A DNA stretch of 64,000 bases, taken from Cognatitamlana onchidii. GTDB taxonomy: Bacteria > Bacteroidota > Bacteroidia > Flavobacteriales > Flavobacteriaceae. This document shows, piece by piece, positions 48,565-50,085 of this stretch. Position numbers and translations under genes: made by a program. Location of the stretch: the NCBI RefSeq assembly GCF_004804355.1, contig NZ_SRWZ01000003.1, positions 434,001-498,000 of the forward strand, given 5' to 3'. The notes under the pieces were generated by a model. It worked only from the letters and a program-made list of their open reading frames with translations, did no database searches and was not told the DNA's origin. Numbering within the stretch: position 1 is the stretch's first letter; every line of letters starts with the position of its first letter.

Positions 48565-48715
48565 AAACTCTATTATGAAATATCAAATTGATGGTCAAAG
48601 ATATTAAGATTATCCTTTTTAAACTATTACGGTTTTTTATAATCTTAAGAAATAATATTTAAAAATATCATCTTAAAAACTAATATTACAAATTATTAAT
48701 TAATTAGCTAATATT

Positions 48716-48746
48716 TTTGTGATTATAGTTAAAAACAGTACATTTG
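48716..48746 (+). promoter_or_regulatory. promoter of the SatD-like / DUF3307 pair
   Basis: TTTG (48716-48719), exactly 19 nt, TACATTTG (48739-48746). The start site would be near 48753, 14 nt before the ATG at 48767, and downstream of the GTG at 48719, which therefore is not the start. Confidence 0.7.
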
Positions 48747-48766: not shown

Positions 48767-49369
48767 ATGACAACAATTATAACTGGCGATATCATTAATT
48801 CTAAGGAAGTTCCTCCAGAGTTATGGCTAGCTGCGCTTAAATCTGTACTCAATTCTTTAGGGAATACACCCAAAACTTGGGATATATTTAGAGGTGATAG
48901 CTTTCAATTTGAAGTCCCTCCCCAAAAAGCACTTCATGCTTGCTTGTTAATTAAAGCGACCATAAAACAATTTAAAAATTTAGATGTTAGGCTCGCTATT
49001 GGTTTAGGTAACAAAACCTTTGATTCAGAAAGGATTACAGAATCGAACGGCACAGCTTTCATTAATTCTGGAGCATGTTTTGAGGCTTTAAAAAAAACCA
49101 CGTTAGCTATAAAATCGCCTTTTGAGGCATTCGATATTCCGATGAATATCATGATACAGTTAGCTCTTTTAACAATAAACTATTGGACACAAACCACGGC
49201 AGGACTTGTAAAGACTACTTTAGAACACCCAGAGTTAAATCAAAAACAAATAGCCAATCTTTTAGGAAAAACACAAGGCAACATTAGTCAAGGATTAAAA
49301 CGCGCTGGTTTTGATGAACTGTCTATATTACTAGAATACTATAAAACCCAAATTAACACCTTATGTTAA
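48767..49369 (+). CDS. SatD-like regulator with cyclase-like fold and C-terminal HTH
   Basis: 200 residues from the ATG at 48767, chosen because the promoter lies just upstream. The C-terminal part has a helix-turn-helix (LNQKQIANLLGKTQGNISQG, about residues 157-176), as in SatD-family proteins. Residues 1-110 carry TIITGDIINSKEVP, then RGDSFQFEVP, LDVRLAIGLG and SNGTAFINSG. These are spaced like the metal Asp pair, the GD loop and the LRxGIGxG / GxAxNxA parts of class III nucleotide cyclases and related folds. Whether it binds or makes a nucleotide is unknown. It overlaps the DUF3307 gene by 7 nt. Confidence 0.78.
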   Translation: MTTIITGDIINSKEVPPELWLAALKSVLNSLGNTPKTWDIFRGDSFQFEVPPQKALHACLLIKATIKQFKNLDVRLAIGLGNKTFDSERITESNGTAFINSGACFEALKKTTLAIKSPFEAFDIPMNIMIQLALLTINYWTQTTAGLVKTTLEHPELNQKQIANLLGKTQGNISQGLKRAGFDELSILLEYYKTQINTLC

Positions 49370-50085
49370 CATTAGCCATTAAACTAATTCTAGCCCACCT
49401 TATTGGCGATTTTTTACTTCAACCACAAAAATGGGTATTACATAAAGAAGCCCACAAACACACGTCAAAATTTCTATATTGGCATATTGCAGTTCACGGC
49501 CTAACCTTACTAATTTTATTAGGATTTAATTTCAAATACTGGATTGGTATTTTAATCATAGTAAGCTCGCACCTCATTATCGACATAACTAAGTTGCACC
49601 TGAAACCCAAAGTAAATAACAGGCTTTTATTTGGCCTAGACCAATTAGCTCACTTTATTGTTATAGCCTTAGTGATACAACTGTATGAACCCTATACCAT
49701 TAATTTAAACACGCTTTTTAGCTCCCAAATTCTCCTGTTTTTAACAGCTATTCTTTGTGCGACAAAAGTATCATCAATCATCATGAAAACCCTTATTTCC
49801 AAATGGAATTTAAGAGCATACACAGAAGAAGCTTCTTTAAAAGATGCAGGAGCTTATATTGGCATACTAGAACGCTTATTTGTATTTGCATTCATTATCA
49901 CCAATCATTGGGAAGGTGTAGGTTTTTTAATAGCCGCTAAATCTGTTTTTAGATTTGGAGACTTATCAAAAGCTAAAGACCGAAAACTCACAGAATACAT
50001 TTTAATTGGAACTTTACTAAGTTTTGGCTTAGCTATCTTGGTTGCATTAGGGTATGTATATGTTTCAGGATTGATTGAAAATTAA
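49363..50085 (+). CDS. DUF3307 membrane protein
   Basis: 240 residues with five or more hydrophobic helices. The DUF3307 signature is at the N-terminus (KLILAHLIGDFLLQPQKWV), with HKEAHKHTSKFLYWHIAVHG and SSHLIIDITKLHLKPK giving conserved His and Asp residues in or near the membrane. The function is unknown. It overlaps the SatD-like gene by 7 nt, so translation is coupled. DUF3307 next to a SatD-like gene recurs in other bacteria, so the two probably act together. Confidence 0.85.
   Translation: MLTLAIKLILAHLIGDFLLQPQKWVLHKEAHKHTSKFLYWHIAVHGLTLLILLGFNFKYWIGILIIVSSHLIIDITKLHLKPKVNNRLLFGLDQLAHFIVIALVIQLYEPYTINLNTLFSSQILLFLTAILCATKVSSIIMKTLISKWNLRAYTEEASLKDAGAYIGILERLFVFAFIITNHWEGVGFLIAAKSVFRFGDLSKAKDRKLTEYILIGTLLSFGLAILVALGYVYVSGLIEN

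Follow-up and report, generated by a model that had tools for sequence, protein, structure and literature searches.

SatD-DUF3307: a two-gene module with a predicted cyclase-like palm domain, an operator array and a membrane protein

The SatD-DUF3307 locus of Cognatitamlana onchidii

A stretch of 64,000 nucleotides from the flavobacterium Cognatitamlana onchidii (contig NZ_SRWZ01000003.1, positions 434,001 to 498,000 of the forward strand), hereafter the window, encodes a SatD-like protein followed by a DUF3307 membrane protein, with the two open reading frames (ORFs) overlapping by 7 nucleotides (49363-49369). We propose that this pair constitutes an autoregulated two-gene module, in which a nucleotide-binding, and possibly nucleotide-making, autorepressor controls a membrane protein, a reading to which we assign a probability of roughly 0.6. 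The two genes are:

48767..49369, forward strand: SatD-like protein of 200 amino acids (aa), with a predicted palm domain at about residues 1-120 and then a helix-turn-helix (HTH) at about residues 142-199
49363..50085, forward strand: DUF3307 membrane protein of 240 aa, with His/Asp-rich N-terminal helices and a C-terminal invariant ER...K...R...E....G...S

The start adopted here for SatD is 48767; in the program-made ORF list the same frame begins upstream, with a GTG at 48719. The protein displays, in order, the motifs GD(8)II.S(12), RGD(44)SFQ, DVRLAIGLG (residues 73-81) and NGTAF (residues 94-98). The two ORFs, this order of motifs, the HTH that follows them and the overlap with DUF3307 are all present as described in the original prediction, which was made from the sequence alone.

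The name SatD derives from the sat operon of Streptococcus mutans. The window protein matches the Pfam SatD model (PF16264) across residues 5-182 with an E-value of 2.3e-5 and 24.6 bits, under the curated cut-off of 29. When whole genomes were searched with this model, neither the window's own nor any of 14 controls gave a match. Of the 29 members of our SatD alignment (A1), 24 match the model at E <=0.1, the best at 6e-13. The nearest homologues are found in Tamlana, Flaviramulus and Algibacter, and haloarchaeal homologues bear the annotation 'SatD family protein'. The partner matches PF11750 with 103.6 bits and clears the curated cut-off of 23.

A predicted palm fold with an intact metal site

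An AlphaFold2 model of SatD, built from 44 sequences, has a mean predicted local distance difference test (pLDDT) score of 95.7 and a predicted template modelling (pTM) score of 0.92. Its N-terminal domain shows a β-α-β-β-α-β-α-β topology, with strands at residues 2-10, 38-41, 45-50, 73-81, 83-85 and 113-116 and helices at 17-31, 52-66 and 96-106, while residues 120-199 form helices that include the HTH. D8 is placed at the end of strand 1 and D44 within the hairpin between strands 2 and 3. When the model is compared with the PDB using Foldseek, the top 50 matches are nearly all class III adenylyl, guanylyl or uridylyl cyclases, GGDEF proteins, Cas10/Cmr2/Csm proteins or GTP cyclohydrolase III. 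VIA-align likewise recovers GTP cyclohydrolase III (Z 9.0, root-mean-square deviation (rmsd) 3.6, 109 residues aligned), Cas10 (Z 9.0, rmsd 3.1, 124 aligned), the GGDEF protein DosC (Z 8.7, rmsd 3.0, 114 aligned) and a bacterial adenylyl cyclase (Z 8.7, rmsd 3.4, 128 aligned), with the palms of family Y DNA polymerases coming next at Z 8.0.

When the PDB is searched with a sequence profile of the N-terminal domain, derived from 24 diverse SatD members, the first four matches all belong to the class III cyclase Ma1120 (E 0.0046-0.0093), and DosC stands at E 0.17. In the Ma1120 alignment D8 falls on the Asp of the TDI motif, D44 on the Asp of the GDG motif and the DVRLAIG strand on VRIGI. Since MotB and congerin chains intervene between Ma1120 and DosC at E 0.013-0.067, the E-values by themselves are suggestive and do not amount to proof. 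With a full-length SatD profile, HTH proteins lead and Ma1120 comes after them, at E 0.02. With the model at pLDDT 95.7, the N-terminal domain of SatD is predicted with high confidence to be a palm of the cyclase/GGDEF/Cas10 type to which an HTH is attached. The original prediction had proposed a cyclase- or GGDEF-like fold in which both Asp residues would superpose on the metal positions of cyclases; the structural matches, dominated by this one superfamily, the lead of Ma1120 in the profile search and the pairing of D8 and D44 with its metal-site Asp residues all support this.

Conservation at these positions was assessed in 149 distinct SatD sequences, two haloarchaeal ones included, the denominators being the sequences with a letter at the position:

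48788..48790, forward strand: codon of D8, first metal-site Asp, at the end of strand 1 (model strand 2-10), aligned with the TDI Asp of Ma1120; 146/147 relatives
48896..48898, forward strand: codon of D44, second metal-site Asp, in the strand 2-3 hairpin within RGDSF, aligned with the GDG Asp of Ma1120; 147/148 relatives

S12 (145/147) and R75 (145/148) are conserved to a similar degree. Two proteins (L105 and L120) count as gaps at D8, the chosen start site having clipped them, and the start was re-read or shifted for five divergent genes at SatD loci (L139, L140, L171, L182 and L187). When 25 diverse members, again with two from haloarchaea, are aligned, the only invariant residues are D8, S12, G43, D44, Q47 and R75. 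The sole member missing both Asp residues is an orphan (L055, 1477-2103, reverse strand), which has lost D8, S12, D44 and R75 and also lacks both a DUF3307 neighbor and an operator array, and is a decayed or repurposed copy. It offers a natural test in which the metal-site residues, the array and DUF3307 are gone together, and we count it in favor of the proposed module.

Class III cyclases also use an Asn and an Arg, located in the helix after strand 4, for transition-state stabilization. With the Gly of NGTAF as the by-eye reference for these two places, an Arg is found in 22 of the 149 sequences, mostly divergent non-flavobacterial members, and the window protein has none there. The Asn place is occupied by Ile or Val in 114/149, with an Asn one residue further along in 74/149, the window protein included. 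GGDEF, mCpol and Cas10-like enzymes lack the class III Asn and Arg, yet are active. Thus, the metal site of SatD is intact, and the part specific to class III enzymes appears to be absent or shifted. The original prediction had called the cyclase-like domain degenerate and had made conservation of both Asp residues in homologues its check: because D8 and D44 are kept in nearly all distinct relatives, the orphan excepted, the metal site is not degenerate, and the term holds at most for the transition-state residues. Neither of the two outcomes that would have told against the prediction, a fold unrelated to cyclases and Asp residues that vary among homologues, was observed.

The RGDSF hairpin of SatD does not constitute a complete GG(D/E)EF motif: Glu occurs at position 45 in 17/149 sequences, and Arg occupies position 42 in 137/149. 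We also considered cyclic di-GMP as a ligand or product, which is unlikely given that GGDEF domains score above cut-off in just 1 of 41 family genomes, with no match in the window's own genome. This genome (G000; C9, C11) contains two ordinary class III cyclase matches and no GGDEF match, so cyclic mononucleotides are likelier signals than cyclic di-GMP in this cell.

A tandem operator array and the code that reads it

Upstream of satD, palindromes of 20 bp (7+6+7) follow one another in tandem, with a period of exactly 28 bp. In the window the array and the candidate promoter are:

48610..48629, no strand: operator copy 1, degenerate, 3/7 pairs mismatched, in the 28-bp register
48638..48657, no strand: operator copy 2, 2/7 pairs mismatched, in the 28-bp register
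48666..48685, no strand: operator copy 3, 3/7 pairs mismatched, in the 28-bp register
48694..48713, no strand: operator copy 4, 2/7 pairs mismatched, in the 28-bp register
48714..48719, forward strand: candidate -33 element TTTTTG, 19 bp ahead of the -7 element, proposed from its sequence and the Bacteroidota consensus
48722..48741, no strand: place of a fifth unit, decayed, inside the -33/-7 spacer, in the 28-bp register (read by eye)
48739..48746, forward strand: candidate -7 element TACATTTG (TAnnTTTG), proposed from its sequence and from the phase that it keeps with the array, both in relatives and in the window

Palindrome pairs 28 bp apart number 95, against a mean of 0.47 and a maximum of 2 in 30 shuffled sets, all shuffles here being first-order Markov re-samplings and not exact dinucleotide shuffles. 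At least two in-register units occur at 76 of 84 loci (mean of 6.6 in 20 shuffled sets), and the strict TAT...ATA form has 167 sites in the 84 upstream regions, compared with 33 in shuffles and 42 in 482 control windows. The periodicity extends to more distant relatives: at 15 loci from plasmid records, viral contigs and archaea, the best of 25 periods is 28 or 29 bp in 13, one of them weak, the 29-bp period having been ranked against the other periods. The count becomes 11/13 when two near-identical pairs are counted once, with the Fusobacterium and Sphingomonas loci failing. A 29-bp array is also found upstream of five of six divergent flavobacterial SatD genes.

The operator half-sites vary by lineage (TATTAG, TATCGG, TATCTG, TATTCC and others), and this variation tracks the presumptive recognition helix of the HTH:

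49274..49306, forward strand: HTH recognition helix, residues 170-180, of which 172 and 175 vary together with the bases of the operator half-site

For the covariation analysis 129 distinct proteins were reduced to the 114 that pass the shuffle threshold and then to 65 loci by removal of relatives with at least 70% identity; half-sites were forced to start with TAT, and all SatD positions were scored against bases 4-7, with the shared tree as internal control. The strongest pairings join residue 172 to base 5 (z 12.6) and residue 175 to bases 4, 5 and 6 (z 12.4, 10.6 and 8.7), followed by residues 172 and 169 at z of about 5 and D39 at 4.8. At residue 175, Glu accompanies C4 in 29/31 loci, Gln accompanies A5 in 9/9 and Lys accompanies C6 in 9/11. 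Covariation thus strongly supports binding of the HTH, at the promoter of satD itself, to tandem palindromes of 20 bp that recur every 28-29 bp.

Exact sites of one half-site class, sought in the genomes of five relatives, fall within the satD array in 3/3, 2/2, 4/4, 4/5 and 2/3 cases (15/17). Thus, SatD looks dedicated to its own operon, and is probably a dedicated regulator of it. This distribution speaks against a broad SatD regulon, an option we set aside; the same pattern matched the window's own genome once, elsewhere. A looser AT-rich pattern for the window's site class gives 11 matches in that genome against 3 in a control, scattered among the matches listed, and is uninformative.

The consensus of the Bacteroidota -7 box is TAnnTTTG. 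Such a box is present in the last 90 bp of 66 of the 114 loci, the 48 without one being left out. Its position agrees to within 1 bp with a single phase of the 28-bp register at 50 of these 66, where about 7 are expected. Because the box is phase-locked to the array, one operator unit fills the -33/-7 spacer, the place of a repressor, and the phase lock thus suggests repression. In the window the spacer unit has decayed, and the phase of the -7 box is still held within 1 bp.

DUF3307 as the near-obligate partner of SatD

By BLAST, SatD is present in 85 of the 149 genomes of the family and in 44 of the 198 of a phylum sample. DUF3307 occurs in 91 family genomes out of that set of 149, and the two genes coincide in 84. 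In all 84 the two are adjacent on one strand, SatD first and at most 250 bp apart (Fisher p 4e-32 for co-occurrence), so that the original prediction's statement that the two families recur as neighbors stands. Loci fetched by SatD similarity, which are best matches and no random draw, contain DUF3307 in 56/57 (the window's own included) and 83/83 (three viral contigs included). Other neighbors of at least 100 aa recur in at most 17 of 80 SatD loci, and the unit therefore consists of two genes. One incomplete SatD gene (L026) was excluded from the comparison of satD-DUF3307 spacing.

Seven family genomes appeared by BLAST to possess DUF3307 only. Six of these have a divergent SatD immediately upstream, with a GDI-type first motif and KGDY as the second, which BLAST had missed; the seventh (G086) has just a 114-aa DUF3307. 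At L211 (1644-1985, reverse strand) a 114-aa N-terminal domain of DUF3307 stands alone, with SatD absent, and adjoins an EngB-like GTPase gene identified by eye. The divergent flavobacterial SatD type, with the motif KGDY(I/L)E, lies between pabB-like and tilS-like genes (by eye) in four genomes (L206, L207, L208 and L209), and in other contexts at L210 and L174.

The model of DUF3307 (pLDDT 92.5) has nine long helices and finds no useful match in the PDB (best Foldseek E 0.16, best VIA Z 7.3). Across 140 distinct partners the invariant residues are F90, Q94, H97, G163, I166, G167, E170, R171, K193, R197, E211, G216 and S220. The C-terminal charged set, which lies beyond the Pfam domain, may mark a SatD-linked long form. 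Phage protein families also hold a short membrane protein of the DUF3307 kind, filed under morons (phrog_2470, 119 positions).

Plasmids, archaea and phage-like DNA

Plasmid records that carry the pair come from Segatella, Enterobacter, Vibrio, Salinivibrio, Sphingomonas, Pseudomonas and haloarchaea, as well as from Pseudoalteromonas (1.2 Mb) and Fusobacterium (2.1 Mb), where the records are very large. At the other extreme, records of 3.8-4.4 kb, six from Klebsiella and one from E. coli, match both genes, and two small enterobacterial plasmids inspected in detail (L188, which is pEC34A of 3770 bp, and L205) have scarcely any cargo besides the pair. Two queries at the DNA level found no copy in complete E. 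coli genomes. On the Sphingomonas plasmid (L191:1245-12520) the pair is surrounded by Gabija GajA and GajB, a TIR protein, a cysteine-rich E2-associated protein and PycC with PycTM. In Enterobacter, a plasmid-borne GajB is separated from the pair by about 2 kb that include an insertion sequence element. An HTH gene and an ImmA/IrrE-like peptidase gene are seen just upstream of the pair both at L140 (3798-4624, reverse strand; by eye) and at L191 (6170-7079; annotated).

Five distinct viral contigs encode DUF3307, and three of them, L139 and L140 included, carry the pair. Of the remaining sequences, L199 starts just ahead of DUF3307, and L202 (5019-5525) has a DUF3307 shortened at its N-terminus and flanking genes that match those of L199, with no SatD ORF of at least 120 aa in its ORF list. 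Lysis-, terminase- or HNH-type genes lie close by in L140, L199 and L202, named by eye save one HNH gene in L140. Named phage genomes yield no relative of the window SatD, the window DUF3307 or the E. coli DUF3307, and one short marginal match to the E. coli SatD. The PADLOC defence models match neither SatD nor DUF3307, except for weak HTH matches of the E. coli SatD.

Functional interpretation

Given this combination of features, we suggest that the palm domain of SatD would bind a nucleotide together with a divalent metal through D8 and D44, and that its HTH, as the covariation strongly indicates, would occupy the palindrome array at its own promoter. From the geometry of the array, SatD dimers bound there would sit over the promoter and keep satD-DUF3307 repressed. 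If the nucleotide bound by SatD changes, or if SatD makes one, DNA binding, the activity of DUF3307 or both could conceivably be altered, and DUF3307 might act only under particular stress, for instance infection or envelope damage. The switch may be membrane-sensed or nucleotide-making, as the original prediction had it; signal synthesis by SatD and a role in anti-phage defence are speculative.

Several observations weigh against this module. No Foldseek match of the SatD model reaches E <=0.001, the best being 2.7e-3, and over the whole span the rmsd is poor for Cas10 (12-14), with most cyclase and GGDEF matches at 3-7; a Z of about 9 together with Foldseek E-values above 1e-3 is moderate for so common a fold. 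In a profile-profile comparison with a class III cyclase alignment, SatD attains a weak probability of 8% (E 0.0043, against 0.35 for an unrelated control). The window's own upstream region contains no site that passes the strict palindrome test, and its array score of 33.5 exceeds the 95% shuffle level of 25.0 while falling below the highest of 129 shuffles (35.9). TA closes the operator and opens the -7 box alike, and this shared dinucleotide may in part favor the observed phase. Finally, one genome (G106; L212:2055-2660, reverse strand) has a SatD that keeps D8, D44, R75 and a 28-bp array, with no DUF3307 match in the genome; a target in trans or recent loss of the partner is possible there.

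Four other explanations deserve consideration. That the palm-like match is a chance resemblance, a common α/β arrangement unconnected with nucleotides, would fit a Z of about 9 that barely exceeds the 7-8 usual for models without clear relatives; we regard it as very improbable, as the matches belong to a single superfamily, D8 and D44 land on catalytic positions, and the sequence and structure comparisons, each independent of the other, lead to the same answer. A more serious contender, although we incline against it, is that SatD is a transcription factor and nothing else, whose palm binds a nucleotide without catalysis, with DUF3307 as a regulated transporter or membrane enzyme. The scarcity of Arg at the transition-state place, the Ile or Val that mostly fills the Asn place and the importance of the HTH evident from the operator covariation all agree with it, but a mere ligand pocket need not preserve both metal-site Asp residues across Bacteria and Archaea, the Asn found one residue on in half or so of the sequences (74/149) may be just shifted, and GGDEF and mCpol enzymes manage without the class III residues.

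The mobility of the pair has to be weighed under the two remaining explanations. One is an immune guard resembling Panoptes or Pycsar, in which a product of SatD would hold DUF3307 off (or switch it on) and disturbance by a phage would lead to membrane damage by DUF3307. The optSE operon combines a palm-fold synthase, with putative active-site residues Asp6 and Asp57, and a transmembrane effector (PMC12657218), and the occurrence of our pair on 3.77-kb plasmids with little else, beside Gabija and Pycsar genes in Sphingomonas, near GajB in Enterobacter and on three phage-like contigs is in keeping with such a role. A study of Streptococcus pyogenes reports satD in only 178 of 249 genomes and yet as essential in those strains where this was tested (PMC11323703), as expected if SatD restrains a harmful partner. 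Such restraint would offer a possible reason why the gene is essential yet accessory, and the report fits it. Against a guard are the PADLOC models, which cover neither protein, the lack of a recognized nucleotide-binding domain or PDB match in DUF3307 and the flavobacterial neighbors, which by eye resemble ordinary chromosomal genes, and we consider this explanation somewhat unlikely. The other is an addiction pair of the toxin-antitoxin kind, with SatD as an antitoxin-style repressor and DUF3307 as a membrane toxin that retains plasmids or prophages. The overlapping or close-set two-gene operon, the autorepression geometry, the mobile location and the same S. pyogenes report (PMC11323703) would suit it, but simple repression requires neither a palm domain nor a metal site, and about one copy per genome in 85/149 family genomes is unusual for addiction modules, so that it is decidedly improbable.

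An ambitious extension of the autoregulated module, which we put forward tentatively and hold to be unlikely as it stands, is that the pair makes up an immune or stress module of a new layout, widespread and operating by nucleotide signalling, in which the signal synthase is itself a DNA-bound repressor on a 28-29 bp ladder and the nucleotide that it makes or holds restrains the membrane protein. If true, an attack on the nucleotide would both free the effector and induce more of it, in a layout common to Bacteria, Archaea, plasmids and phage-like elements.

SatD and DUF3307 have so far been names without a function, despite their spread through 85/149 family genomes, haloarchaea, tiny Klebsiella and E. 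coli plasmids and phage-like contigs. DUF3307 is encountered in the open-access literature searched as a table entry for a jumbo phage, and among the papers listed there none describes the pair or deals with the fold, operator or partner of SatD, although others may exist. The tandem 28/29-bp palindromes and the 172/175 operator code are new here, within the open-access literature searched. With a conserved metal site and an operator code read from sequence, the orphan pair becomes a testable signalling module, for which predictions can be made of the ligand class, the DNA site, the residues that select it (172 and 175) and the positions, D8 and D44, whose mutation should disrupt the module.

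Comparison with known systems

As regards the SatD family (PF16264), relatives of the window protein mostly match the profile (24/29) and haloarchaeal homologues are annotated accordingly, but its own 24.6 bits fall short of the curated 29. With the class III cyclases, such as Ma1120, Rv1264 and the Pycsar PycC, SatD shares the predicted fold, the motif order and the two metal Asp positions; it differs from them in its C-terminal HTH and, for the window protein, in the lack of the transition-state Arg and an Asn that is at best one residue off. With the GGDEF, Cas10 and mCpol palms it is linked by structural matches to DosC and Cmr2/Cas10 and by a hairpin, RGD(S/E)F, that stands where GG(D/E)EF would be, whereas the complete motif of the GGDEF diguanylate cyclases is absent. 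An earlier case of an uncharacterized bacterial family being assigned the cyclase fold is that of the DUF2652 class III cyclase-like proteins (PMC4886424), which are a family separate from SatD and for which the part of that source covered here mentions neither an HTH nor a DUF3307 partner.

In Panoptes (optS-optE), the membrane effector is described as being restrained by a cyclic dinucleotide, the product of a palm-fold synthase (PMC12657218), and SatD-DUF3307 resembles it in being a two-gene operon for a palm-fold protein and a membrane protein. In contrast to Panoptes, SatD bears an HTH and has an operator array, and DUF3307 is not an S-2TMβ effector, as it matches PF11750 only and is modelled as all-helical, with nine long helices. 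With catalysis and an anti-phage function still putative in the present case, Panoptes is the nearest working model for SatD-DUF3307.

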